Shown piece after piece: positions 11,292-24,705 of a stretch of DNA of 64,000 nucleotides. The stretch is from the NCBI RefSeq assembly GCF_027107535.1, contig NZ_CP114283.1, positions 2,108,001 through 2,172,000 on the forward strand, in the 5' to 3' direction. Each line of letters opens with the position of its first letter. Position 1 is the first letter of the stretch. The notes under the pieces were generated by a model. The model was not told the origin of the DNA. It ran no database searches and worked only from the letters and a program-made list of their open reading frames with translations. This DNA is from Streptomyces aurantiacus. Its GTDB lineage: Bacteria > Actinomycetota > Actinomycetes > Streptomycetales > Streptomycetaceae. The position numbers and the translations under genes were made by a program.

Positions 11292-12131
11292 TCAGCGGAC
11301 CTCGTACGGCTGGCCGTAGACCTTCCACTTCAAGGGGGTGTCCAGGTCCAGGTTGCCGTCGTACAGGAACTGGCGCTGGGCCGTGTCCACCCGGGACGTG
11401 TCCCGTTTCTCTTCCTTCATCGTCTTCTTCCTGGCGTCCAGGAAGATGTCGAGGTAGGCCTCCTCCTCGCCGCCCTCCGCGGGAGTGTCCGCCTGCTCCA
11501 TGGCCCGCTCGCGGATGCCGTAGAAGCCGGGATCGGTGCCGGGCCCGTGCATGACCATGGCGTCGTAGTAGATGAACTGGCCGAGCGCGCCCAGGCCGTC
11601 GCGCCGGGCGAGGCGGACCGCCGGGTCGAAGTACACCCGGTCGCGCTCGGAGTCCTGCGCGCGACGGAACACCGCTGTCCGGGACTCCGCCTTCCAGGCC
11701 GCGACGAACCCGGAGCCCAGCCCTTCGTGGGACTCGGAGCCGTCGACCTCCCGGAGTGCGGGGAGGTAGCGGGCCAGGGCGTTGTCCGGGTGGGACTTCG
11801 TGTAGCGCTCGACCAGGTCGAGCAGGTCGTGCGTACCGGTCGTGAAGCCGATGATGCCGGCGGTGTAACCACGGCCGTCGCCTATGTCCTCGACGTAGTC
11901 GTACTGTCCGCGCCAGTCGAGGCTGGAGTTCTCGGCGCTGGACACGATCCGCTGGGCCAGTTCCTTCTTGTCCGGCGAGTCCAGGCCGCCCCGTCCGTCG
12001 GCGGAGCGGGCGGGAGAGGCGGTCCGGGCGTCCGAGCGCGAGTCGTCACCGCTCTGGCCGGGCACGGCGAAGTACGCCGCCACCGCGACGAGAGGGACGG
12101 CGACGAACAGCAGACGGCCAGCGCGTTTCAT
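11292..12131 (-). CDS. csn: GH46 chitosanase, exported
   Basis: A 279-residue glycoside hydrolase family 46 enzyme that cuts chitosan endolytically. An N-terminal hydrophobic segment (LLFVAVPLVAVAAYFAV, 7-23) serves as signal peptide or anchor, followed by a low-complexity linker. The catalytic pair is Glu67 in SSAENSSLDW and Asp85 in DIGDGRGYT, 18 residues apart as in the N174 chitosanase. Family blocks ERDRVYFDPA, GQFIYYDAMVMHGPG and DTSRVDTAQRQFL are present. The ATG at 12131 has no clear Shine-Dalgarno, but TACTCT lies 6 nt upstream, so a leaderless transcript is possible. It is convergent with gltD and stands alone. Confidence 0.93.
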   Translation of the reverse strand: MKRAGRLLFVAVPLVAVAAYFAVPGQSGDDSRSDARTASPARSADGRGGLDSPDKKELAQRIVSSAENSSLDWRGQYDYVEDIGDGRGYTAGIIGFTTGTHDLLDLVERYTKSHPDNALARYLPALREVDGSESHEGLGSGFVAAWKAESRTAVFRRAQDSERDRVYFDPAVRLARRDGLGALGQFIYYDAMVMHGPGTDPGFYGIRERAMEQADTPAEGGEEEAYLDIFLDARKKTMKEEKRDTSRVDTAQRQFLYDGNLDLDTPLKWKVYGQPYEVR

Positions 12132-12205
12132 GGGCAAAGAGTACGATCGGCCCTCAGCGGCGTGCCGCATCGGGTGGAGTGTCTGTGAGCGTCGGGGGAG
12201 GACCT

Positions 12206-12424
12206 GTGAGCGCGGAGGAACTGGCGCTGCTGCGGGCGGAGTTGGGCAGCCCCCTGCCGGAGGGCTTCGGGACGCTGGACGGCACGCAGGCCCGGTCGCT
12301 CGCCCAGGCACTGCGCCGGGCCCGGGAACGCAGGGCATCCGGACTGACGGAGGCCGTCGAGGATGCCCTCACCCTCGTACCGGCCCTGACCAGGGAACCT
12401 GTCCGCCGGATGCTCTTCCGCTAG
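12206..12424 (+). CDS. Small helical protein of unknown function
   Basis: A 72-residue protein starting at GTG 12206, preceded by GGGGGAGG four bases away. An upstream in-frame GTG at 12179 lacks such a site. It is Leu/Ala/Arg-rich and predicted helical, with no signal peptide, membrane segment or recognised motif. It ends 11 bp before the next gene and is probably co-transcribed with it and the vWA gene. The function is unknown. Confidence 0.7.
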   Translation: MSAEELALLRAELGSPLPEGFGTLDGTQARSLAQALRRARERRASGLTEAVEDALTLVPALTREPVRRMLFR

Positions 12425-14346: not shown

Positions 14347-15429
14347 TCACGAACAGCGACGAGCACCACCACTGACGACGTCCGCGGCGAGCACCAGTTC
14401 CCGGCACTGCTGCGGGGTGCCCCAAGCGCCCCGCAGCGCCCGGGCCTTGGTCAGCCACAGGGACAGGTCGTACTCCGCGGTGTAGCCGATCGCGCCGTGC
14501 AGCTGCAGGGCCGTGCGGGCGGTCGCGTAGGCCGCCTCGCAGGCGGTGACCTTCGCGGCGGCGACGTCGGCCGGGTCCATCGTCAGCGCGGCGCCGAAGA
14601 GCAGGGGGCGCGCGAACTCCAGGCCGATCTTCGCGTCGGCGAGCCGGTGCCTGACCGCCTGGAACGAGCCGATGGGAACGCCGAACTGGCTGCGCTGCTT
14701 GACATAGGTGACCGTTTTGTCGAGGAGGGCGAGGCCCACCCCGAGGGCCTGGGCGGCGGTCGCGAGGCGGGCCCAGACGAGGGCCGCGTCCGCGCCGGAG
14801 GCGAGGTGGGGGCCGGCGGCAAGGAGTTCACCTCCGGGACGAGGGAGGCACAGCCGCCGGGCGGGGTCGAGGGAGCGGCGAACCCGTCCGCCCGGGGCTT
14901 CGGAGGAGCCGGATCCTGGAACAACCGTCAGCCGCAGCTCCCCGGTGCTGGGCTCCCCGGCCCCGGACACCGTTGCCCCGGACGCCCCGGTTCCGCCAGA
15001 ACCCCCGGTCACGGTCAGTTCCACATCCGCGACGTCGCCGTCCAGCATGTACGGTCCTGAGCCCGGCAGGGCCACCGTTGCGACGGTCTCCCCGGCGGCC
15101 AGCCCCGGCAGGAATCTCTTCGCCGGACCCGGATCGGTGAGCAACGAAGCCGCCGCCACCGTCTCCACCAGCGGTCCCGGCACCACGTGCCTCCCCAACT
15201 CCACGAAGGCGACGGCCAGTTCGACGGGTCGAGGTCCGAAGCCCTCGTACGCCTCGGGCACCGCCAGTGCGAACACCCCCGCGTCGGCGACACGCGACCA
15301 CAGGGCCCGCCCGGCCGTAGGGTCGCCGGCGCTCCACGACCGTACGACCGAAGGGGTGTCCGCCGCGGTCAGCAGGGCGTCCAGGGAGCGGGCGAACGCG
15401 GTCTGTTCGGCATCCAGGAGGAAACGCAT
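14347..15429 (-). CDS. fadE32: Acyl-CoA dehydrogenase subunit, FadE32-like
   Basis: A 360-residue acyl-CoA dehydrogenase fold. The N-terminus (MRFLLDAEQTAF) and the stretches ADAGVFALAVPE and LGRHVVPGPLVETVA resemble mycobacterial FadE32. A C-terminal four-helix domain carries KQRSQFGVPIGSFQAVRHRLAD and LHGAIGYTAEYDL. In mycobacteria FadE31 and FadE32 form a heteromeric dehydrogenase for steroid ring-degradation intermediates. The ATG overlaps the stop of fadE31 (ATGA), fitting a two-subunit enzyme. A Gly/Ser-rich stretch at residues 141-163 looks like a clade-specific loop. It ends the left edge of the steroid cluster. The pairing is inferred from similarity and gene order. Confidence 0.85.
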   Translation of the reverse strand: MRFLLDAEQTAFARSLDALLTAADTPSVVRSWSAGDPTAGRALWSRVADAGVFALAVPEAYEGFGPRPVELAVAFVELGRHVVPGPLVETVAAASLLTDPGPAKRFLPGLAAGETVATVALPGSGPYMLDGDVADVELTVTGGSGGTGASGATVSGAGEPSTGELRLTVVPGSGSSEAPGGRVRRSLDPARRLCLPRPGGELLAAGPHLASGADAALVWARLATAAQALGVGLALLDKTVTYVKQRSQFGVPIGSFQAVRHRLADAKIGLEFARPLLFGAALTMDPADVAAAKVTACEAAYATARTALQLHGAIGYTAEYDLSLWLTKARALRGAWGTPQQCRELVLAADVVSGGARRCS

Positions 15430-16637
15430 CAGCGGCGTCCCTTCGGCAGGCCGAGCAGCCGCTCGGCGATGATGTCGCGCTGGATCTCGTTCGTGCCCGC
15501 GTAGATGGGTCCCGCGAGCGAGAAGACGTACCCCTCTGCCCATCCGCCGCCGTCCGCGCCGGCCGAAGGACCGTCCGCCGACTCCCCGTCCGGCGCCCGC
15601 CCGCCCGCCATCTGCCCGCCCGCCAGCTCTCCGTCCCCGCCGAGGAGATCGAGTGCCGTCTCGTGCAGCGCTATGTCGTACTCGGACCAGAACACCTTGT
15701 TCAGGCTGGACTCCGGCCCGACGGGCTCGCCGTCGAGGAAGCGGGACGCGGCCGCGTACGTGAACAGCTGGTAGGCGCGGGCGCCGATCACCGCGTCCGC
15801 CACGCGGTCACGGGTGAACGGGTCCCGGCCGTGCTCGCGCCAGAGCGCTGCCAGCCGGTCGGCCGAGGCCAGGAACCGGCCGGGGGAGCGGAGCGTCAGG
15901 CCGCGTTCGTTGCCCGCCGTCGACATGGCCACCCGCCAGCCCTGCCCGGGCTCGCCGATCACGTCCTCGTCCGGTACGAACACCTCGTCCAGGAAGAGTT
16001 CCGCGAAGGCGGGCTTCCCGTCCAGCCTGCCGATCGGGCGGACGGTCACGCCCGGAGCGCGCAGGCCGAACATCAGGTAGGTGAGGCCCTGATGGGGCTT
16101 CGGGGTGTCCGGCTCGCTGCGGAACAGGCCGAAGGCGCGGTCGGCGAACGCGGCCCGTGACGACCACGTCTTCTGCCCGCTCAGGAGCCAGCCGCCGTCC
16201 GTGCGTACCGCCCTGGACCTGAGTGAGGCGAGGTCGGAGCCGGCCTCGGGCTCCGACCAGGCCTGTGCCCAGACGACCTCGCCGGAGGCCATCGGCGGCA
16301 GGATCCGCGCGCGCTGCTCCTCCGTTCCGTGGTCGAAGAGCGTCGGCGCGAGGAGGTTGATGCCGTTCTGGCCGACCCGCCCGGGGGCGCCCGCCGCGTA
16401 GTACTCCTCCTCGAAGACCAGCCAGCGCAGGAGCCCGGAATCCCGGCCGCCGTACGCGGCAGGCCAGGACACCACCGACCAGCGGTCCGCGGCGAGTTCG
16501 GCCTCCCAGGCGCGATGGGCGGCGAAGCCCTCCTCGGTCTCCAGGGAGGGCAGCGGCCCGGCCGGTACGTGCACGTCGAGCCAGGCGCGGGCCTCGGCAC
16601 GGAACGCCTCGTCGGCGGGTGAGTGGGTCAGGTCCAT
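15429..16637 (-). CDS. fadE31: Acyl-CoA dehydrogenase subunit, FadE31-like
   Basis: A 402-residue flavin acyl-CoA dehydrogenase. The motifs FEEEYYAAGAPGR, AQAWSEPEAGSDLASLRS, NERGLTLRSPGRFL and GPIYAGTNEIQRDIIAERL follow mycobacterial FadE31. It should dehydrogenate a CoA-bound product of steroid C/D-ring breakdown together with FadE32. The ATG at 16637 was chosen because it begins at the family start MDLTHSPADEAF; it lies 35 bp from a KstR2-like operator. Residues 339-365 are a Gly/Ala/Asp-rich insertion just before the conserved C-terminal motif. It overlaps fadE32 by 4 bp and is divergent from ipdF. Confidence 0.87.
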   Translation of the reverse strand: MDLTHSPADEAFRAEARAWLDVHVPAGPLPSLETEEGFAAHRAWEAELAADRWSVVSWPAAYGGRDSGLLRWLVFEEEYYAAGAPGRVGQNGINLLAPTLFDHGTEEQRARILPPMASGEVVWAQAWSEPEAGSDLASLRSRAVRTDGGWLLSGQKTWSSRAAFADRAFGLFRSEPDTPKPHQGLTYLMFGLRAPGVTVRPIGRLDGKPAFAELFLDEVFVPDEDVIGEPGQGWRVAMSTAGNERGLTLRSPGRFLASADRLAALWREHGRDPFTRDRVADAVIGARAYQLFTYAAASRFLDGEPVGPESSLNKVFWSEYDIALHETALDLLGGDGELAGGQMAGGRAPDGESADGPSAGADGGGWAEGYVFSLAGPIYAGTNEIQRDIIAERLLGLPKGRR

Positions 16638-16671
16638 CGGGCGGCTTCCTTCGGTGGCGGCACGCTTCCCT

Positions 16672-16685
16672 AACAAGTGTTTGGT
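16672..16685. promoter_or_regulatory. KstR2-like operator between fadE31 and ipdF
   Basis: AACAAGTGTTTGGT matches the mycobacterial KstR2 consensus AnCAAGnnCTTGnT at all fixed positions but one. It lies in the divergent promoter region, 16 bp before the ipdF ATG and overlapping a TAGGTT -10-like hexamer (16685-16690). It is nearly the reverse complement of the site at 22956. Confidence 0.7.
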
Positions 16686-16701
16686 AGGTTAGCGTGGGCC
16701 C

Positions 16702-17487
16702 ATGGCAGACGTCGAGGGTCCGGTGTACGTGCCCGGGCACGGGCTGTTGAAGGGGCGCACCGCGGTCATCACGGCCGCCGCGGGCGCCGGGATCGGTGGT
16801 GCCACGGCCCGCCGCTTCCTGGAGGAAGGCGCGCGCGTGCTGATCAGCGACGCGCACGAGCGGCGGCTGAAGGAGTACGAGGAGGAGCTGGCCGGGGAGT
16901 TCGAGGGGGTCGCCGCGCTCGCATGCGACGTCACCGACGGGACCCAGGTGCGCGCGCTCTTCGGCGCGGCGACGCGGCTGCACGGGCGGCTCGACATCGT
17001 GGTGAACAACGCGGGCCTCGGCGGCACTTCGGACCTCGTCGACATGAGCGACGAGCAGTGGTCGAAGGTCCTCGACGTGACACTGGGCGGCACCTTCCGG
17101 TGCACCCGCGAGGCCCTGCGGGCCTTCCGCGACGGCGGCCACGGCGGCGTGATCGTCAACAACGCCTCCGTCGTCGGCTGGCGCGCCCAGGCCGGCCAGG
17201 CGCACTACGCGGCCGCGAAAGCGGGCGTGATGGCACTGACCCGGTGCGCGGCCATGGAGGCGGCCGCCTTCGGAGTGCGGGTCAACGCCGTCTCGCCGAG
17301 CCTCGCCATGCATCCGCACCTGGTGAAGGTGACCACTCCCGAACTGCTGGAGGAGCTGACGTCCCGCGAGGCCTTCGGGCGGTACGCGCAGCCGTGGGAG
17401 GTGGCCAACGTGATCGTGTTCCTCGCCTCCGGCTACTCCTCGTACCTGACCGGCGAGGTCGTCTCCGTCAGCAGCCAGCATGCGTGA
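16702..17487 (+). CDS. ipdF: Short-chain dehydrogenase, IpdF-like
   Basis: A 261-residue SDR. The nucleotide-binding motif is TAAAGAGIGGATARR (24-38), in place of the usual TGxxxGIG. This variant, the lead-in PGHGLLKG and the end SSYLTGEVVSVSSQHA all match mycobacterial IpdF (Rv3559c). Catalytic residues are Ser156, Tyr169 and Lys173. IpdF oxidises the hydroxyl of the CoA thioester formed from the steroid indanedione propionate HIP. No clear Shine-Dalgarno precedes the ATG; a TAGGTT hexamer 11 nt away suggests a near-leaderless mRNA under the KstR2-like operator. Confidence 0.88.
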   Translation: MADVEGPVYVPGHGLLKGRTAVITAAAGAGIGGATARRFLEEGARVLISDAHERRLKEYEEELAGEFEGVAALACDVTDGTQVRALFGAATRLHGRLDIVVNNAGLGGTSDLVDMSDEQWSKVLDVTLGGTFRCTREALRAFRDGGHGGVIVNNASVVGWRAQAGQAHYAAAKAGVMALTRCAAMEAAAFGVRVNAVSPSLAMHPHLVKVTTPELLEELTSREAFGRYAQPWEVANVIVFLASGYSSYLTGEVVSVSSQHA

Positions 17488-17535
17488 GCACTCCGCGTGG
17501 GGCCGGGCCGAGGCCCCGCACACCACAATGGAACC

Positions 17536-18153
17536 GTGCCTACCAAGAAGAAGCCCCAGGTGACCGCCTCGCCCGAGCGGCGCCGTGAACTCCTCGGTAC
17601 CGCCGCCGAGGTCTTCGCCGAGCAGGGCTACAACGCCACCACCGTACGCAAGATCGCGGACCACGCGGGCATGCTCGCGGGCAGTCTCTACTACCACTTC
17701 GACTCCAAGGAATCGATGCTGGAGGAGATCCTGCGGACCTTCCTGGACGAGCTCTGGGACGGGTACGACACCGTCCTGGACGCCGAGCTCGGCCCGCGCG
17801 AGACGCTGGAGGCCCTGGTCACCGAGTCCTTCCGGGAGATCGACCGGCATCGCGCGGCCGTCGCGATCTACCAGAAGGAGTCCAGGCAGCTCGTCGCGCA
17901 GGAGCGCTTCGCGTTCCTCGCCGAGTCGCAGCGCAGGTTCGAGAAGGCGTGGCTGTCCACGCTGGAGCGGGGCGTGGCCGGCGAGGTCTTCCGGGACGAC
18001 CTCGACATCCGCCTCACCTACCGCTTCGTGCGCGACACCGTGTGGGTCGCCGCGTCCTGGTACCGGCCCGGCGGACAGCACAGCCCCGACGAGATCGCCC
18101 GCCAGTACCTGTCGATGGTGCTGGACGGGATCGCCGTACGAGACCAGCCGTAG
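17536..18153 (+). CDS. kstR2: TetR-family repressor KstR2
   Basis: A 205-residue TetR regulator. The helix-turn-helix spans AEVFAEQGYNATTVRKIADHAG plus SLYYHFDSKESML (about residues 25-62; motif given in two parts). The ligand domain carries IYQKESRQL, TYRFVRDTVWVAASWYRPGG and IARQYLSMVLDGI, a close match to mycobacterial KstR2, which represses the HIP pathway and is released by HIP-CoA. GTG 17536 was chosen; CACAAT lies just upstream, consistent with a leaderless transcript. It follows ipdF by 48 bp and precedes fadA6, as in the mirrored mycobacterial order. Confidence 0.9.
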   Translation: MPTKKKPQVTASPERRRELLGTAAEVFAEQGYNATTVRKIADHAGMLAGSLYYHFDSKESMLEEILRTFLDELWDGYDTVLDAELGPRETLEALVTESFREIDRHRAAVAIYQKESRQLVAQERFAFLAESQRRFEKAWLSTLERGVAGEVFRDDLDIRLTYRFVRDTVWVAASWYRPGGQHSPDEIARQYLSMVLDGIAVRDQP

Positions 18154-18236
18154 AGAGCGGCCGTACACGGCGAGAGAACATCCGTGGACAGCGAGAGAAC
18201 AGCCGGGGAAGACAAGAGACCAGCCGTAGAAGGCAG
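18139..18236. repeat. Degenerate tandem repeat, about 21-24 bp per unit
   Basis: Four imperfect direct units containing GAGA(G)(A)CCAGCCGTAG or GAGAGAACAGCCG run from the last codons of kstR2 into the spacer before fadA6. GAGACCAGCCGTAGA occurs at both ends of the array. No gene fits this spacer. Confidence 0.55.
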
Positions 18237-18255
18237 TTGAAGCAGGGGAGTCGTC

Positions 18256-19413
18256 ATGGCCGAGGCCTACATCGTCGAAGCGGTCCGTACACCCGTGGGG
18301 CGCCGGAAGGGGGGACTGAGCGGGGTCCACCCGGCCGACCTGGGCGCGCACGTGCTGAAGGCCCTGGTCGCGCGCTCCGGAGTCGACCCGGCCGCCGTCG
18401 AGGACGTCGTCTTCGGATGTCTGGACGCCGTGGGGCCGCAGGCCGGTGACATCGCGCGGACGTGCTGGCTGGCGGCCGGGCTGCCCGAGGAGGTGCCGGG
18501 GGTGACGATCGACCGGCAGTGCGGATCCTCGCAGCAGGCCGTGCACTTCGCCGCGCAGGCCGTGCTCTCCGGCACACAGGACCTCGTGGTCGCCGGCGGT
18601 GTGCAGAACATGACGCAGATCCCCATCGCCTTCGCCTCCCGCCAGGCCGCCGAGCCGCTGGGACTCACCCAGGGGCCGTTCGCCGGCAGCGAGGGATGGC
18701 GGGCACGGTACGGCGACCGGCCCGTCAACCAGTTCCACGGCGCCGAGCTGATAGCGGCCAAGTGGGGCATCAGCAGGCGGGACCAGGAGGAGTTCGCCCT
18801 GCGGTCCCACCAGCGGGCGCTACGGGCCATCGACGAGGGACGCTTCGCGCGCGAGACGGTGCCGTTCGGGGATGTCGCGGTCGACGAGGGGCCCCGGCGG
18901 GACACCTCGCTGGAGAAGATGGCCGGGCTGAAGCCCGTCGTGGAGGGCGGCACCATCACCGCCGCCTGTTCCTCGCAGGTGTCCGACGGGGCGGCCGCGA
19001 TGCTGCTCGCCTCGGAGCGGGCCGTTCGTGAGCACGGCCTCACCCCCCGGGCGCGCGTGCACCACCTCTCCGTGCGCGGGGAGGACCCGATACGGATGCT
19101 GTCGGCGCCGATACCCGCCACCGCGTACGCCTTGAAGAAGGCGGGGATGTCCATCGGTGAGATCGACCTCGTCGAGATCAACGAGGCGTTCGCGCCCGTG
19201 GTGCTGGCCTGGCTGAAGGAGACCGGGGCCGACCCCGGGAGGGTCAACGTCAACGGGGGTGCGATCGCTCTCGGGCATCCGCTGGGCGCCACGGGAGTGA
19301 AGCTGATGACGAGCCTCCTGCATGAACTGGAGCGGACCGGAGGGCGGTTCGGGCTGCAGACGATGTGCGAGGGCGGGGGACAGGCCAACGTGACCATCGT
19401 CGAGCGGCTCTAG
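18256..19413 (+). CDS. fadA6: Thiolase, FadA6-like
   Basis: A 385-residue acetyl-CoA acetyltransferase-type thiolase. The nucleophile is Cys89 (RQCGSS). His341 lies in NGGAIALGHPLGATG and the second cysteine, Cys371, in MCEGGGQANVTI. The protein begins directly with EAVRTPVGRRKGG, the usual thiolase start, after GGGGAG. Length and neighbours match FadA6 of the KstR2 regulon, which cleaves acyl-CoA products of ring D/C opening. It is downstream of kstR2 on the same strand and convergent with ipdC. A general beta-ketothiolase cannot be excluded on motifs alone; the context decides. Confidence 0.9.
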   Translation: MAEAYIVEAVRTPVGRRKGGLSGVHPADLGAHVLKALVARSGVDPAAVEDVVFGCLDAVGPQAGDIARTCWLAAGLPEEVPGVTIDRQCGSSQQAVHFAAQAVLSGTQDLVVAGGVQNMTQIPIAFASRQAAEPLGLTQGPFAGSEGWRARYGDRPVNQFHGAELIAAKWGISRRDQEEFALRSHQRALRAIDEGRFARETVPFGDVAVDEGPRRDTSLEKMAGLKPVVEGGTITAACSSQVSDGAAAMLLASERAVREHGLTPRARVHHLSVRGEDPIRMLSAPIPATAYALKKAGMSIGEIDLVEINEAFAPVVLAWLKETGADPGRVNVNGGAIALGHPLGATGVKLMTSLLHELERTGGRFGLQTMCEGGGQANVTIVERL

Positions 19414-19516
19414 GCCGCTTGCCGGCTGCGGGCGGGCGAGGGCCCGTCCCGCAGATCCCGCCTCCCGACGGAGGGTACTGACGGAGCGTCCCGACGGGGC
19501 GCCCCTGTGGAGGTGC

Positions 19517-20572
19517 TCACGGTGAGCCGGGGCCGGGGAGCGCGCCGAGCGTCTCCCTGGCCTCCGCCATCACCCGCTCCACCAGCTCCGCGCACGACGG
19601 CAGGTCCTCGATCAGGCCTGCCACCTGGCCCGCGGCCATCACCCCGAGATCCGCGCGGCCCTCGACCATCGACGCGCGCAGCAGCATCGGGGTGTTGGCG
19701 GCAAGGAGGACCTGGCTCCAGGTCAGGCTCCTGCCGTGCTTCATCGCCAGGCCGTCGCGGATCATCCGCGACCAGGTGAGGCCCGACAGCTTCCTGAACC
19801 CGGCGGCTCGGCGCACCGCCCGGGTCAGGGTTCTCGCGCGGCCCGCTCCCTCCAGGGAGTCGACGAGGTCGGTACGGAGCATGCGGTGCGGCAGCCCGTC
19901 CACGGCGGTCGTCACCGTGACGTCCTTCACCGTGGCCGCGAGATACCGGGCCTTCACCGCGTCCGGCACCGTCGACTCCGAGGTCAGCAGGAAACGGGTG
20001 CCCATGGCGACGCCGGACGCGCCGTACGCGAGGGCCGCGACCAGGCCCCGGCCGTCGAAGAAACCGCCCGCCGCGACGACGGGTATGCCGACGGCGTCCA
20101 CGACCTGGGGAAGGAGGACGCTGGTCGCCACCTCACCGGTGTGGCCGCCGCCCTCACCGCCCTGCACGATCACCGCGTCCGCGCCCCACGCCGCGACCTT
20201 CTCCGCATGGCGGCGGGCCCCGATGGACGGGACGACGACAACGCCCGCGTCCTTGAGCTCGGCGATCAACTCACGGGAGGGAGCCAGCGCGAAGGACGCG
20301 ACCTTCACGCCCTCCTCCACGATGATCCGCACGCGGTCGCCGGCGTCCCCCGCGTCCGCGCGCAGGTTCACCCCGAACGGCGCGTCCGTACGGGACCTGA
20401 CCTCGCGGATCGCCGCCCGCAGCCGGTCGGGTGTCATCGTCGCGGAGGCGAGGATGCCCAGCGCACCCGCGTTCGCCGTGGCGGAGACCAGACGCGGGCC
20501 CGCCACCCAGCCCATCCCGGTCTGCACGATCGGATACCGCACGCCGACGAGCCTGGTCAGTGCGGTCTCCAT
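19517..20572 (-). CDS. ipdC: Nitronate monooxygenase-family flavoprotein, IpdC-like
   Basis: A 351-residue TIM-barrel flavoprotein. It begins TRLVGVRYPIVQTGMGWVAG, and the FMN/active-site segment QGGEGGGHTGE spans 137-147 with His144. AAGGFFDGRGLVAAL and GVAMGTRFL complete the phosphate-binding side. In mycobacteria IpdC is a flavin reductase that introduces a double bond in the HIP pathway before ring C hydrolysis. The ATG overlaps the ipdB stop (ATGA), so it is the last gene of the echA20-ipdA-ipdB-ipdC operon. Annotation as plain nitronate monooxygenase would miss the context. Confidence 0.88.
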   Translation of the reverse strand: METALTRLVGVRYPIVQTGMGWVAGPRLVSATANAGALGILASATMTPDRLRAAIREVRSRTDAPFGVNLRADAGDAGDRVRIIVEEGVKVASFALAPSRELIAELKDAGVVVVPSIGARRHAEKVAAWGADAVIVQGGEGGGHTGEVATSVLLPQVVDAVGIPVVAAGGFFDGRGLVAALAYGASGVAMGTRFLLTSESTVPDAVKARYLAATVKDVTVTTAVDGLPHRMLRTDLVDSLEGAGRARTLTRAVRRAAGFRKLSGLTWSRMIRDGLAMKHGRSLTWSQVLLAANTPMLLRASMVEGRADLGVMAAGQVAGLIEDLPSCAELVERVMAEARETLGALPGPGSP

Positions 20573-21330
20573 CAGCCCCTGACCTCACGGTCGCGCAGAC
20601 CCCGCGGATCGATGACCTCGCGGATCGACGCCAGCTCCGCCGAGGACGGTTCACGGGTGTACGGCACCTCGTCCGGGACGGCCAACTCGAAGCCCGTCGC
20701 CGCGAGGACCTCCTCGACCGTCACCCCCGGATGCAGCGAGGCCAGTCGCATCGAGTGGTCCGGGGTCGCGAAGTCGAACACCCCCAGATTCGAGACCACC
20801 CGCGGAATGCGGTGGAAACGGGTCGCCGTCGGGCCGGCCGCCGCCGCGCTGTCGTACCCCACCCCGCCGATCATGTCGACCTTCTCGACGAAGACCCGCT
20901 TCGAGTGCTTGGGCACCCAGTAACTGACCGGGTTGTTCAGCGTGTTGACCGGTGCGCCCCGCACCCCGAGCAACTGCCGGGTGGGCCGCTCCCAGTCGCC
21001 CACGCACGAGATGTTCTGGTTGCCGAAGCGGTCGATCTGGCTCGCGCCCATCATCACGTGCCGCCGCCCGCCGGTCACCAGGGCCAGATGCTGCCGGTAG
21101 GGCAACCAGCCCTCCGGGGTGCCGTCGGGGCCGATCAGCATGGCCTCGCCGTCGGTCAGCATCAGGTCGGGTGAGAAGGTGTGCCGGGCGAGGCGGGCTC
21201 CGACCGACGGGATCAGACCCATCGGGCTGGCCAGCACCTCGCCGTTGTCCCGCCATGCCTCGGCGCAGGCGATCACGCAGTACTCGGCCCGGGTGACACC
21301 GCTCAGGGCCGTGCTCGTCGACGTACTCAT
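20572..21330 (-). CDS. ipdB: CoA-transferase-family ring C hydrolase, beta subunit
   Basis: A 252-residue CoA-transferase beta-type protein. It starts at ATG 21330, which overlaps the ipdA stop by four bases. Conserved blocks include EYCVIACAEAWRDNGE, DGEAMLIG, VMMGASQIDRFGNQNIS and FVEKVDMIGG. In mycobacteria IpdA and IpdB form a heteromer that hydrolyses the last steroid ring (COCHEA-CoA) rather than moving CoA between acids. The gene order and 4-bp overlaps on both sides support a stoichiometric complex. Confidence 0.9.
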   Translation of the reverse strand: MSTSTSTALSGVTRAEYCVIACAEAWRDNGEVLASPMGLIPSVGARLARHTFSPDLMLTDGEAMLIGPDGTPEGWLPYRQHLALVTGGRRHVMMGASQIDRFGNQNISCVGDWERPTRQLLGVRGAPVNTLNNPVSYWVPKHSKRVFVEKVDMIGGVGYDSAAAAGPTATRFHRIPRVVSNLGVFDFATPDHSMRLASLHPGVTVEEVLAATGFELAVPDEVPYTREPSSAELASIREVIDPRGLRDREVRG

Positions 21331-22190
21331 CGCTGCTCCTCGTGCCAGGCCTCCACGGCGGTCCGGTAGTCCTGCTCGTCGCCCGAGAGGAACCTCTCGG
21401 CGAACTCGGGCCAGGGCATGGACGCGTAGAGCCGCTGGAAGGCCTCGTCCCGGTCGTGGTCGGGCGCGCACGACGTGAAGTGGGCACCGCTCGGCGCCTC
21501 CACCACGCCGGTCACGCCCAGCCGCTTGATCAGCAGGGTCTGCGGGGGCGCCGCCTTCGTCAGCTCGGCCGTGTCGACGATCCGCTCACAGGACACGTAC
21601 GCCGTCGCGGCCGCCTCGCAGAACAGGTCGTCGAAGTACGGGTCGGGGCCCAGATACTGGCCGTTGCCCGCGCGGTCCGCGCGGTTCACATGGACCAGCG
21701 CCGCGTCCAGACGCAGGGCCGGCATCGCGACGAACGTCTCACGCAGGCCCGTCGACTCGTCCTCGTACGGCGAAGTGACCGTGCGCAGCCCCGGATTGAC
21801 CCGCATCACGTCCGAGCCGATACCGGCCCGCACCGGCAGGAACGGGAGCCGGTTGGCGGCCGCCCGCAGCCCCCACATGAACATCGCCTCGTCGATCTCC
21901 ATCAGGTCGAGGGAGCCACTCTCACGGGCCGCCCGGAAGTGCGGTTCGAGCGGGATCGAGTCGAGCGTCGCGAACGGGGCGACCAGTTTCCGTATCCGCC
22001 CGGCGGCCGCGAGCATGCCGACGTCCGGGCCGCCGTACGAGACGACCGTGAGATCGGTGACCGTGGAGCGGAGCAGTGCGCGCACGAGCGCCATCGGCTT
22101 GCGGCGGGAGCCCCAGCCCCCGATACCGAGGGTCATCCCGCTCTCCAGCCGGGAGACTGCCTCGTCGGCGGTCATCGTCTTGTCACCCAT
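21327..22190 (-). CDS. ipdA: CoA-transferase-family ring C hydrolase, alpha subunit
   Basis: A 287-residue CoA-transferase alpha-type protein. The N-terminal GMTLGIGGWGSRRKPMALVR (19-38) is the CoA-binding Gly-rich block, followed by SYGGPDVGML. Glu98 or Glu101 in MEIDEAMF (97-104) is the candidate catalytic acid. The second half carries NRADRAGNGQYLGPDPYFDD, typical of CoA transferase I. The ATG follows the TAG of echA20 with no spacer, and the stop overlaps ipdB. It is the partner of IpdB in hydrolytic opening of steroid ring C. The assignment rests on similarity and operon order. Confidence 0.9.
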   Translation of the reverse strand: MGDKTMTADEAVSRLESGMTLGIGGWGSRRKPMALVRALLRSTVTDLTVVSYGGPDVGMLAAAGRIRKLVAPFATLDSIPLEPHFRAARESGSLDLMEIDEAMFMWGLRAAANRLPFLPVRAGIGSDVMRVNPGLRTVTSPYEDESTGLRETFVAMPALRLDAALVHVNRADRAGNGQYLGPDPYFDDLFCEAAATAYVSCERIVDTAELTKAAPPQTLLIKRLGVTGVVEAPSGAHFTSCAPDHDRDEAFQRLYASMPWPEFAERFLSGDEQDYRTAVEAWHEEQR

Positions 22191-22934
22191 CTACCCGCCC
22201 GCCTTTCCGAACGTGTCCCGGACCCTGTCGCCCACGCCGCCGAGGCCCGCCTCGAACGTGAACCCCTGCTCGAAGCGGTAGCTGCGCCGCACGTCGACAG
22301 GATCGATGCCGTTGATGGCCGCCTTGGCGAGCCGGATCAGCTGCCCGTCCTTGCCCGCGATCTCCCGGGCCAGCTCCAGCGCGGCGGAGCGCAGCCCGTC
22401 ACGCGGCACGACCCGCCACACCGACCCGTGGCCGTGCAGCTCCGCCGCGGTCGCCGTGCGCGACGTGTAGTACAACGCCCGCATCAGGTGCTGCGGCACC
22501 AGGCGGGCCAGGTGCGTGGCCGCGCCCAGCGCGCCCCGGTCCAGCTCGGGCAGACCGAACGTGGCCTCCTCGCTCGCCACGATCGCGTCAGCGTTGCCCA
22601 CCAGGCCTATACCTCCGCCCAGACAGAAACCGTGCACCTCCGCCACCACCGGCACCTCGCACTCGTACACCGCGGCGAAGGCCTCGGCGCAGCCGCGGTT
22701 GGCGCCGAGCAGGGCGCTGTCGCCCTCTGCCTGTATCTCCTTGATGTCCACGCCCGCGTTGAACCCCCGCCCCTCGGCGGCCAGCACCACACAGCGGATC
22801 CCGGGGTCGCGGCCCGCCGCGCGCACGGTGTCGGCCAGCTCGAACCAGCCGCGCACCGGCAGCGCGTTCACCGGCGGGAAGTCGACCGTGACGACGGAAA
22901 TCCCTTTTTCCGGGGACGAGGTGGAGACACTCAT
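22191..22934 (-). CDS. echA20: Crotonase-family ring D hydrolase, EchA20-like
   Basis: A 247-residue crotonase-fold protein. FNAGVDIKE (58-66) and GFCLGGGIGLVGN (102-114) form the oxyanion hole, and GLPELDRGALGAATHL (127-142) matches EchA20 of Mycobacterium tuberculosis, as do the start (PPVNALP) and the end (YRFEQGFTFE). EchA20 hydrolyses ring D of the steroid-derived CoA thioester, which is unusual for an enoyl-CoA hydratase family member. It is the first gene of the minus-strand ipd operon, about 22 bp from the KstR2-like palindrome. Its TAG abuts the ipdA ATG. Confidence 0.92.
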   Translation of the reverse strand: MSVSTSSPEKGISVVTVDFPPVNALPVRGWFELADTVRAAGRDPGIRCVVLAAEGRGFNAGVDIKEIQAEGDSALLGANRGCAEAFAAVYECEVPVVAEVHGFCLGGGIGLVGNADAIVASEEATFGLPELDRGALGAATHLARLVPQHLMRALYYTSRTATAAELHGHGSVWRVVPRDGLRSAALELAREIAGKDGQLIRLAKAAINGIDPVDVRRSYRFEQGFTFEAGLGGVGDRVRDTFGKAGG

Positions 22935-22955
22935 GGACGCATCAGCTACCTTTCC

Positions 22956-22969
22956 ACCAAACGTTTGTT
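22956..22969. promoter_or_regulatory. KstR2-like operator between echA20 and SDR genes
   Basis: ACCAAACGTTTGTT contains the perfect 10-bp palindrome CAAACGTTTG and keeps the outer A..C and G.T positions of the KstR2 consensus AnCAAGnnCTTGnT, with two symmetrical changes. It sits in the divergent promoter between echA20 and the plus-strand SDR gene. Confidence 0.68.
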
Positions 22970-23021
22970 AGGTGCGGTCAGCTCTGAAAGTAACAGCGAA
23001 TACCGGCGAGCGGGAGGCCCT

Positions 23022-23756
23022 GTGGACAAGCGGCTCGTTGTGGTCACGGGCGGGACCAGAGGGGTCGGCGCCGGGATCGCCCGGGCCTTCGCCGACGCGG
23101 ACGACGAGGTCCTGGTCTGTGCGCGCAGACCACCTCAAGTGCCCCTGGAAGGCATCGGGTTCGCCCCTCTCGACCTGCGCGACCCGCCGGCCGTACGTGC
23201 CTTCTTCGAGCGGCTGCCGCGGCTCGACGTCCTGGTCAACAACGCGGGAGGCGCCCCCTACCGGCTGCTCACGGAGACGGAGGCCGAGTGGCACGCACGC
23301 GTGATCGACCTCAACCTCACCGCCCCCCTGACGGTCTCCCTCGCGGCGTACGACCGGCTGAAGCCCGCCCGGGGCTCCATCGTGATGATCGGCAGTGTCA
23401 GCGGGACCCGGCCCTCGCCCGGCACGGCGGCCTACGGGGCGGCCAAGGCCGGACTGGAGAACCTGGCACGCTCGATGGCCGTGGAGTGGGCACCGGACGT
23501 GCGGGTCAACACGCTCGTCGTGGGGATGGTCCGCACCGGGCTGTCCCACCTCCACTACGGGGGCGAGGACGGCATCGAGGCCGTCTCCCGCACCGTCCCG
23601 CTGGGGCGGCTCGCCGCGCCCTCGGACATCGGCGGGGCGGCCGTCTTCCTCGCGTCGGACGCCGCCGCGTACATCACCGGCGCCGGCCTCCTCGTGCACG
23701 GGGGCGGCGAGCGGCCCGCCTTCCTGGACGCGGCGACCGTCAACAAGGAGAAGTGA
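23022..23756 (+). CDS. Short-chain dehydrogenase of the steroid cluster (Rv3549c position)
   Basis: A 244-residue SDR starting at GTG 23022, with GGGAGG five bases upstream. GGTRGVG (10-16) binds the nucleotide, NNAG follows at 73-76, and the catalytic residues are Ser125, Tyr138 and Lys142. It occupies the place of Rv3549c in the mirrored mycobacterial cluster, divergent from echA20 across the KstR2-like operator. Its stop is separated by one base from the next SDR start. It presumably oxidises or reduces a hydroxyl/keto group of a ring C/D intermediate. The exact step is unknown. Confidence 0.85.
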   Translation: MDKRLVVVTGGTRGVGAGIARAFADADDEVLVCARRPPQVPLEGIGFAPLDLRDPPAVRAFFERLPRLDVLVNNAGGAPYRLLTETEAEWHARVIDLNLTAPLTVSLAAYDRLKPARGSIVMIGSVSGTRPSPGTAAYGAAKAGLENLARSMAVEWAPDVRVNTLVVGMVRTGLSHLHYGGEDGIEAVSRTVPLGRLAAPSDIGGAAVFLASDAAAYITGAGLLVHGGGERPAFLDAATVNKEK

Positions 23757-23757
23757 C

Positions 23758-24705
23758 ATGACCTCAGGCACGTATCCGGACGCGGGCGCGGGCGGCCGCA
23801 CGGGCATCTGCGACGGCCGGGTGGTGATCGTCACGGGTGCCGGGCGCGGGCTCGGACGGGCCCACGCGCTCGCCTTCGCGGCGGAGGGCGCGCGGGTCGT
23901 CGTCAACGACCTGGGTGTCGGGCTCGACGGTTCGCCCGGGGCCGACAGCCCGGCCCGGCAGGTCGTCGAGGAGATCTCGGCGACAGGCGGCGAGGCCGTC
24001 GCGCACGCCGGGGACATCGCGACGACCGAGGGTGCCGCATCCCTCGTACACACGGCCGTGGACGCCTTCGGGCGACTCGACACGCTCGTGAACAACGCCG
24101 GGTTCCTGCGCGACCGGATGCTGGTGAACCTCGACGAGGACGACTGGGACGCCGTCATGCGGGTCCATCTGAAGGGCCACTTCCTGCCGCTCAAGCACGC
24201 CGCCGCGCACTGGCGGGCGCAGGCGAAGGCGGGGCGGATGCCGCAGGCCCGGGTCGTCAACACCAGCTCCGGAGCAGGCCTGTCGGGGTCCGTCGGGCAG
24301 GGCAACTACAGCGCGGCCAAGGCCGGCATCGTCGGACTCACCCTCGTCGCCGCCGCCGAGATGGGGCGCTACGGAGTGCAGGTCAACGCCATCGCGCCGG
24401 CCGCGCGGACCCGGATGACCGAGGCGGCCTTCGCGCAGGCCATGGCGGCACCGGACAGCGGCTTCGACGCGATGGCACCCGAGAACGTGTCACCGCTCGT
24501 CGTCTGGCTGGGCTCCGCCGCGAGCGCCGGGGTCACCGGCCGGGTCTTCGAGACCGAGGGCGGCCGCATCACCGTCATGGACGGCTGGCGGCCCGGCCCG
24601 AGCGCCGACAAGGGGGCGCGGTGGACTCCGTCCGAGGCCGGGGACACGGCACTGAAACTCCTCGCGGAGGCACAGGCGCCGCCCCGGGTGCACGGGGCGC
24701 AGTGA
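23758..24705 (+). CDS. Short-chain dehydrogenase of the steroid cluster (Rv3548c position)
   Basis: A 315-residue SDR of the long, HSD17B4-like type. TGAGRGLGRAHALAFAAEGA (26-45) is the cofactor site, extended by NDLGVGLDGSPG. The catalytic residues are Ser171, Tyr184 and Lys188. The C-terminal part (GVTGRVFETEGGRITVMDGW) is shared with MaoC-linked hydroxyacyl-CoA dehydrogenases, suggesting a CoA-thioester substrate. It follows the preceding SDR by one base and closes the cluster on the right. The role matches Rv3548c by position. The substrate is inferred. Confidence 0.85.
   Translation: MTSGTYPDAGAGGRTGICDGRVVIVTGAGRGLGRAHALAFAAEGARVVVNDLGVGLDGSPGADSPARQVVEEISATGGEAVAHAGDIATTEGAASLVHTAVDAFGRLDTLVNNAGFLRDRMLVNLDEDDWDAVMRVHLKGHFLPLKHAAAHWRAQAKAGRMPQARVVNTSSGAGLSGSVGQGNYSAAKAGIVGLTLVAAAEMGRYGVQVNAIAPAARTRMTEAAFAQAMAAPDSGFDAMAPENVSPLVVWLGSAASAGVTGRVFETEGGRITVMDGWRPGPSADKGARWTPSEAGDTALKLLAEAQAPPRVHGAQ

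Follow-up and report, generated by a model that had tools for sequence, protein, structure and literature searches.

The stretch of DNA analysed here (the window; 64,000 nucleotides of Streptomyces aurantiacus, positions 2,108,001 to 2,172,000 of NZ_CP114283.1, or G000:C2:2108001-2172000 in a 9.9-Mb two-contig genome) contains eleven adjacent genes, fadE32, fadE31, ipdF, kstR2, fadA6, ipdC, ipdB, ipdA, echA20, SDR1 and SDR2 (SDR, short-chain dehydrogenase/reductase), which occupy 14347-24705. We propose, at a probability of roughly 0.7, that these genes belong to a split, KstR2-controlled module for HIP, the C/D-ring remnant of steroids, and that the module works on HIP supplied by other microbes, independently of an upper pathway for rings A and B; the cluster most likely works as a C/D-ring cluster together with a second locus (locus B). 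The computed results on which we build are the identities of the eleven genes, two operators, locus B with its FadD3, IpdE1-clade protein and positional IpdE2, the joint presence of cluster and entry genes in a sample of the genus, and the negative searches for KshA and HsaC orthologues in this genome. Throughout, G000 denotes the window's genome and the other G-numbers denote sampled Streptomyces genomes.

As reference loci we used those of Rhodococcus koreensis and Mycolicibacterium, in which gene names were assigned by their order in Table 1 of PMC5380842, the part of that paper which gives the KstR2 regulon. The cluster proteins are 42-73% identical to their positional counterparts in these organisms, and for these eleven genes the order and orientations, read in reverse, match both Mycolicibacterium and Rhodococcus; an earlier, sequence-only reading of the window had stated this for the mycobacterial regulon. 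That reading had also described four tight junctions, of which the ATGA overlap of ipdA and ipdB and the TAG-ATG abutment of echA20 and ipdA stand, whereas ipdB/ipdC and fadE31/fadE32, taken for ATGA overlaps, in fact meet in TGATG with a one-base overlap. The two acyl-CoA dehydrogenases were told apart by percent identity: FadE32 is 42-46% identical to FadE32 of R. koreensis and two Mycolicibacterium, versus 31-34% to FadE33 (and scores 138 bits on the IpdE2 model, whose cut-off is 450), and FadE31 is 58-62% identical to FadE31, versus 37-40% to FadE30, of the reference clusters, which rules out that the pair is a disguised fadE30/fadE33.

Comparison with solved structures placed IpdA closest to 6co6_A (342 bits) and 6con_A (327 bits; next family 81 bits) and IpdB closest to 6co6_B (299 bits) and 6con_B (285 bits; next 62 bits). 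Both structures carry the depositors' label of CoA-transferase subunits; we take them to be IpdAB of Rhodococcus and M. tuberculosis, and Glu101 of IpdA aligns with the 6co6 glutamate that is replaced by alanine in 6coj. The TetR protein matched 2ibd ('possible transcriptional regulator') with 223 bits and KstR2 (4w97, 4w1u) with 193 bits, the next structure reaching 78. The best solved relatives of IpdA, IpdB and the TetR protein are thus HIP-pathway proteins by a wide margin, and EchA20 shares 63-68% of its residues with the crotonase encoded at the corresponding position in Rhodococcus and mycobacteria. When ten of the cluster proteins were scanned with NCBIfam models (SDR2 was left out), IpdF, FadA6, EchA20 (NF005925, 400 bits, cut-off 260) and SDR1 (NF005893, 355 bits, cut-off 255) gave above-cut-off matches with general names; IpdA, IpdB, IpdC (254 bits on the FabK model, below its cut-off of 453), KstR2, FadE31 and FadE32 gave none, and no KstR2 model was among the matches. 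The structural relatives of IpdA, IpdB and the TetR protein, the identity of EchA20 and the gene order bear out the earlier assignment and do not refute it by that reading's own criterion of best hits; that this is a genuine KstR2-type C/D-ring cluster in Streptomyces is well supported by these comparisons.

The cluster is widespread among the Streptomyces sampled. IpdA matches were found at an expect value (E) <=1e-20 in 220 of 295 Streptomyces genomes, 209 of them strong (2e-79 or better) and 11 weak (E above 1e-30), and among the 120 closest listed relatives all rows with an organism given were Streptomyces, at up to 98% identity; across the phylum, IpdA was found at E<=1e-70 in 27 of 296 genomes and 16 of 198 genera. 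We chose 20 other Streptomyces loci for reading, whose IpdA is 75-96% identical to that of the window. In none of the 20 do the called genes depart from the window's relative order, and the full set of eleven was called in 14; the genes without a call are ipdF (L120, L127), fadE32 (L134, L136) and SDR1 (L137), and for L128 fadE31 and fadE32 lie not in the locus but in a neighbouring stretch (L184). Extra reading frames between ipdC and fadA6 occur in nine of the 20 loci, fadE30 adjoins ipdF in L128, and an extra hydratase adjoins fadE31 in L136. In the window all eleven reading frames are open, and the Nei-Gojobori ratio of nonsynonymous to synonymous substitution (dN/dS), calculated with three relatives, lies in the range 0.05-0.35 throughout the cluster: all eleven genes are under purifying selection. 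Because of these ratios and of the order kept in the 20 loci, the cluster is not a chance assembly. FadE32, which contains a Gly/Ser-rich stretch, is among the fastest-evolving members (dN/dS 0.27-0.35; SDR1 reaches 0.34). IpdA homologues of 80% and 72% identity were also seen on megabase-size Streptomyces replicons held as plasmids (NZ_CP081497.1 and NZ_CP108854.1).

Two putative KstR2-type operators (Table 1), on which the sequence-only reading was silent, lie in the cluster. The pattern ACCAAACNNTTGTTAG has two perfect matches genome-wide, which are operators 1 and 2; allowing one or two mismatches adds another two, and the same pattern run backwards as a control has one match within two mismatches. 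The region of operator 1 was comparable in 17 of the 20 other Streptomyces loci (14/14 positions in 16, 13/14 in one) and that of operator 2 in 19 (14/14 in 18, 12/14 in one). The motif AnCAAGnnCTTGnT, which we take to be that of KstR2, was found at the promoters of the reference clusters; the predicted site 1 departs from it by one mismatch and site 2 by two, both at the corresponding divergent promoters. Moreover, the site between ipdF and fadE31 of the window (CCTACCAAACACTTGTTAGG) has 18 of 20 bases in common with the fadE30/fadD3 intergenic site of R. koreensis (CCTACCAAGCACTTGCTAGG). A one-mismatch KstR2-type site is also present at G000:C2:944734-944749 (L108), between two other divergent genes which, to guess from their sequence starts, resemble membrane glycosyltransferases.

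In the reference clusters fadE30 and fadD3 lie between ipdF and fadE31, and fadE33 follows fadE32; all three are absent from the cluster in the window, which the sequence-only reading did not remark on. Its conclusion that the cluster would let the strain use HIP goes too far, because FadD3 (the HIP-CoA synthetase), FadE30 (IpdE1) and FadE33 (IpdE2) are missing from the cluster and HIP use cannot be deduced from the cluster alone; such use is plausible only with locus B, at G000:C2:8.986-9.015 Mb, about 6.85 Mb from the window cluster. That the entry genes had been lost from the genome altogether was rejected when searches with FadD3 and IpdE1 found this locus. The best FadD3 match in the window's own genome (C2:8986447-8987958) scores 501 bits at 52% identity, the next best 259 bits; it passes the NCBIfam FadD3 model with 798 bits (cut-off 657; the Rhodococcus protein scores 737) and groups in a tree with reference and in-cluster FadD3 with support 98/99. 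The locus-B IpdE1 (C2:9012341-9013489) is 56% identical overall and 61% over residues 50-404.

IpdE1 and IpdE2 (FadE30 and FadE33) together form a heteromeric acyl-CoA dehydrogenase. A first IpdE1 tree was flagged for long branches and was rebuilt without three distant rows (the L113, L109 and L179 paralogues) and the duplicate L089; L189 was left out of both trees, and the IpdE1 copy of G008, which groups with locus B, was labelled accordingly in the rebuilt tree, following the first. The rebuilt tree separates FadE30 and locus-B IpdE1 from FadE31 at 100/100, with locus B as its own sub-clade nested among FadE30 proteins, so that FadE31 is the only group against which locus-B IpdE1 joins FadE30 firmly. 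A candidate for IpdE2 lies between the two entry genes (Table 1). The other genes of locus B encode Ltp-like thiolases, a ChsH2-type OB-fold protein, hydratases, an MFS transporter, a TetR regulator and an SDR, and its core is syntenic in G040, G049, G006, G007, G058 and G023. The Ltp/ChsH2-type pair next to fadD3 might remove the side chain aldolytically; we prefer a thiolytic route, which SDR2 and FadA6 would provide. Beside locus B we also observed a second acyl-CoA dehydrogenase pair with an amidohydrolase (G000:C2:9016937-9020221; L113:13938-17222), of which relatives occupy the same place in G041 (all three genes) and G006 (the pair, where the stretch ends).

Cluster and entry genes tend to occur together. 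In a sample of 61 Streptomyces (IpdA strong, FadD3 at E<1e-110, IpdE1 at E<1e-80), all three proteins were found in 41 genomes and none in 16. Taken in pairs, IpdA and FadD3 were both present in 42 and both missing in 16, with IpdA only in two (G008, G020) and FadD3 only in one (G001); IpdA and IpdE1 were both present in 43 and both missing in 16, with one discordant genome each way (G032, G001). Each of the four genomes that break the pattern comes in 230 to 740 contigs, with a completeness of 79% for G001. IpdE2 was left out of these counts, the genus-wide search having been swamped by paralogues. In four genomes (G004, G015, G025 and G041) fadE30 lies inside the ipd cluster, with no other IpdE1 match at E<=1e-80; fadD3 and the IpdE2 candidate are still found in locus B, in which no ipdE1 was seen in the 60 kb read per genome (most stretches were also searched by tblastn). 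In G041, adh and sdr stand 26 bases apart where G000, G040, G049 and G058 have ipdE1, and locus B is otherwise largely intact. This complementarity of fadE30 and ipdE1 makes it less likely, though still conceivable, that locus B is unrelated to HIP.

Several observations weigh against the joint working of cluster and locus B. The stretches of locus B (L113 and L114) contain no operator-like site of at least 11/14, so that a KstR2 operator common to both loci was rejected and their joint regulation is unsupported. The first IpdE1 tree, whose outgroups included two distant dehydrogenases, united locus-B IpdE1 and FadE30 against all outgroup rows with weak support (68/94, in 64% of bootstrap trees). 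A search of the own genome with the IpdE2 model gave nothing over its cut-off of 450: the locus-B candidate reached 206 bits, hardly above two genome paralogues (199 and 187); on the same model the Mycolicibacterium protein passes (585) and the Rhodococcus protein (316) also falls below the cut-off. For the hydratase of the Rhodococcus cluster, the best match in locus B reaches 34%, which is not a close copy. The Fisher values for co-occurrence (approximately 1e-11 to 1e-12) ignore shared ancestry. In the stretches read for G004, G015 and G025, neither ipdE1 nor its locus-B neighbours adh and sdr were seen, which leaves G041 as the only example of the loss of ipdE1 alone, and G023 (both kinds), G012 (two) and G011 (three) have IpdE1 matches at odds with a one-copy rule. 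Finally, the FadD3 and IpdE1 of locus B are sub-clades apart from the in-cluster Streptomyces copies and, because of this and of the two kinds of IpdE1 in G023, locus B could serve another acid.

This last consideration also counts in favour of an alternative, that the true substrate of the module is another hydrindane acid and that steroids are incidental. Such an acid, which would have the 1-oxo-hydrindane-4-carboxylate core in common with HIP intermediates, might be a terpenoid or a coronafacic-acid-like compound of Streptomyces or plant origin. Coronafacic acid is structurally similar to HIP intermediates; moreover, the locus-B sub-clades are separate, and a KshA match was lacking from 141 of the 150 Streptomyces searched, although 103 of these 150 have IpdA. 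We nevertheless regard this alternative as unlikely: operator 1 and the ring enzymes closely resemble those of steroid degraders, in-cluster fadE30 and locus-B ipdE1 replace each other in four genomes, and all nine genomes with KshA carry IpdA. If the substrate were indeed a non-steroid hydrindane acid, KstR2-type clusters would have a second biological role.

We next consider the upper pathway. Single-protein searches found no KshA at E<=1e-40 and no HsaC at E<=1e-25 in the window's genome; in 150 Streptomyces (taken as G000-G149) the same searches were positive in nine and 33 genomes, respectively. Nine of the HsaC-positive genomes, at 49-53% identity, are the same nine that have KshA, the others lying at 29-44%, and the strong IpdA matches in 103 of the 150 include all nine. 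A joined query of five A/B-ring enzymes against the own genome, in which the best seven candidates were scored, gave no HsaC or HsaD at E<=1e-20 and only distant relatives of HsaA (32%) and KshA (28%); the HsaC and KshA negatives are those repeated by single-protein searches, and the HsaA and HsaD results rest on the joined query. The use of bile-acid or sterol remnants suggested by the sequence-only reading may therefore hold for the C/D part and does not extend to rings A and B, for which no KshA or HsaC orthologue was found in the genome. Because most of the sampled Streptomyces keep the C/D genes and few have genes for the first two rings, a finishing of the steroid leftovers of others is suggested.

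A KstD orthologue (C2:6081372-6083006, 54%) is nevertheless present in this genome without a KshA match, and among the 61 Streptomyces KstD was found at E<1e-170 in 17, 16 of them with IpdA. An operon at G000:C2:9413824-9418867 (L115:7825-12868) encodes an Ltp2-like protein (68% to Mycolicibacterium), a ChsE1-like protein (45%) and a weaker ChsE2-like dehydrogenase (29-30%), the set expected of a sterol side-chain operon. A second, divergent HsaC group is present in some Streptomyces, and in G014 one contig (C46) carries divergent HsaC (41%), HsaD (43%) and HsaA (38%) together with KstD-like genes; KshA is not matched in this genome at E<=1e-40, and the set may represent a further steroid-type pathway. 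The KstD orthologue, the Ltp2/ChsE1-type operon at C2:9.414-9.419 Mb and such divergent HsaC/HsaD sets (41-43%, as in G014) would suit a complete steroid degrader whose A/B-ring steps are carried out by enzymes unrelated or only distantly related to KshA, HsaA, HsaC and HsaD. This seems to us improbable, given a genome without HsaC and KshA at the thresholds above and strong KstD in only 16 of the 44 IpdA-positive genomes of the 61. The same remnants, KstD and the side-chain-type operon in a genome where upper-pathway genes were not found, could be those of a once complete pathway, of which the cluster would be a decaying, non-functional relic. To this we give the least credence of all, in view of eleven open frames at dN/dS 0.05-0.35, operators that have hardly changed across the compared loci, strong IpdA in 209 of 295 genomes and entry genes that are kept with IpdA.

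In the split module that we favour, the window would hold the ring-opening half of the HIP pathway and the second conserved chromosomal region its entry half. HIP would be taken up from outside and activated by the locus-B FadD3, and the resulting HIP-CoA would release KstR2 from the two operators. The side chain would be shortened by IpdE1/IpdE2, a hydratase, SDR2 and FadA6, and IpdF, IpdC, EchA20 (ring D), IpdAB (ring C), FadA6 and FadE31/FadE32 would convert the bicycle to central CoA thioesters. The search near fadD3 of this genome found no KstR2-like site, and the inducer-making enzyme may therefore already be expressed before induction. The strain would accordingly be a finisher that lives on HIP from A/B-ring degraders.

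The features are collected in Table 1, in which the Rv3549c and Rv3548c labels of SDR1 and SDR2 were assigned by position and the candidate role of SDR2 is taken from the available text of PMC8399759. To the left of the cluster lie a GH46 chitosanase gene (11292-12338), with reading frames of unclear status between it and the cluster, and gltBD-like genes. The second of this pair has matching domains; the pairing itself we presume from size and order.

Table 1. Features of the KstR2-type cluster (window coordinates) and the IpdE2 candidate of locus B (contig C2 coordinates).
Feature	Position	Strand	Location or basis
fadE32-like acyl-CoA dehydrogenase (beta-type subunit)	14347-15429	-	start 15429; identity comparison
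fadE31-like acyl-CoA dehydrogenase (alpha-type subunit)	15429-16637	-	start 16637; identity comparison
putative KstR2-type operator 1	16670-16685		between divergent fadE31 and ipdF; CTAACAAGTGTTTGGT on + strand
ipdF, short-chain dehydrogenase	16702-17487	+	62-64% to reference IpdF
kstR2, TetR-family repressor	17536-18153	+	GTG start; upstream GTG at 17497 possible; 48-56% to reference KstR2
fadA6, thiolase	18256-19413	+	64-73% to reference FadA6
ipdC, FMN-dependent (FabK-like) reductase	19517-20572	-	63-67% to reference IpdC
ipdB, ring-C hydrolase beta subunit	20572-21330	-	start 21330; 57% to R. koreensis IpdB
ipdA, ring-C hydrolase alpha subunit	21327-22190	-	59% to 6co6_A segment; solved-structure scores
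echA20, ring-D hydrolase (crotonase family)	22191-22934	-	63-68% to reference EchA20
putative KstR2-type operator 2	22956-22971		between divergent echA20 and SDR1; ACCAAACGTTTGTTAG
SDR1, homologue of Rv3549c-type SDR	23022-23756	+	GTG start; 53-58% to reference SDR adjoining echA20
SDR2, homologue of Rv3548c-type SDR, hydroxyacyl-CoA dehydrogenase candidate	23758-24705	+	69% to same-place R. koreensis SDR; adh_short domain
IpdE2 candidate	C2:8996293-8997573		between locus-B fadD3 and ipdE1; position only

Compared with the KstR2 regulon and HIP cluster of Mycobacterium and Rhodococcus, as tabulated in PMC5380842, the window has the same eleven gene families, order, orientations, divergent promoters and operator type, but lacks fadD3, fadE30 and fadE33, whose counterparts are the distant genes of locus B; operator 1 has two deviations in 20 bases relative to the site of R. 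koreensis, and the searches for KshA and HsaC in the window's genome were negative. Relative to the known IpdE1-IpdE2 dehydrogenase, the locus-B IpdE1 groups with FadE30 against FadE31 but lies outside the cluster, forms a distinct sub-clade and has its IpdE2 partner by position only. Within the genus, the minority with a steroid pathway (the nine of 150 genomes with KshA and HsaC at 49-53%, including G012, G023 and G098) has the same C/D-ring module together with these two genes, neither of which was found in the window's genome, and in G098 and G012, unlike in the window's genome, fadD3, fadE33 and fadE30 lie in the same region as the module. On these comparisons, the window cluster is probably best described as a variant of the known type that is split and confined to rings C and D.

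A survey of steroid degraders reported, in the sections available, that 55 of 57 Streptomyces genomes lack the steroid pathway, with KshA and HsaC among the markers demanded (PMC4810484); because both were required, that survey would not count C/D-only genomes. The reference list of PMC5380842 contains a 1977 title, present there as an entry only, that names HIP metabolites formed by Streptomyces rubescens. Cross-feeding among bile-acid degraders is discussed in PMC8399759, the available main text of which does not name Streptomyces, and a cholesterol-hydroxylating CYP125 from Streptomyces peucetius is described in the accessible part of PMC9728343; the portions available of PMC9782250 and PMC3388012 hold nothing on a C/D-only module. 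Among the matches listed from the open-licence literature, we recognised no report of a widespread C/D-only module in Streptomyces.

For the genus as a whole, we lean towards the view that most Streptomyces are steroid finishers, with a two-locus HIP module, no upper pathway, HIP from other microbes and FadD3 outside KstR2 control. The arrangement illustrates how a regulon might be divided between the steps of one pathway, the ring-opening genes staying next to KstR2 and the activating ones lying away from the cluster. Since strong IpdA is found in 209 of 295 genomes while KshA and HsaC (49-53%) occur together in nine of 150, a cross-feeding role is possible for the genus, and a major group of soil bacteria may in this way join in the mineralisation of steroids.

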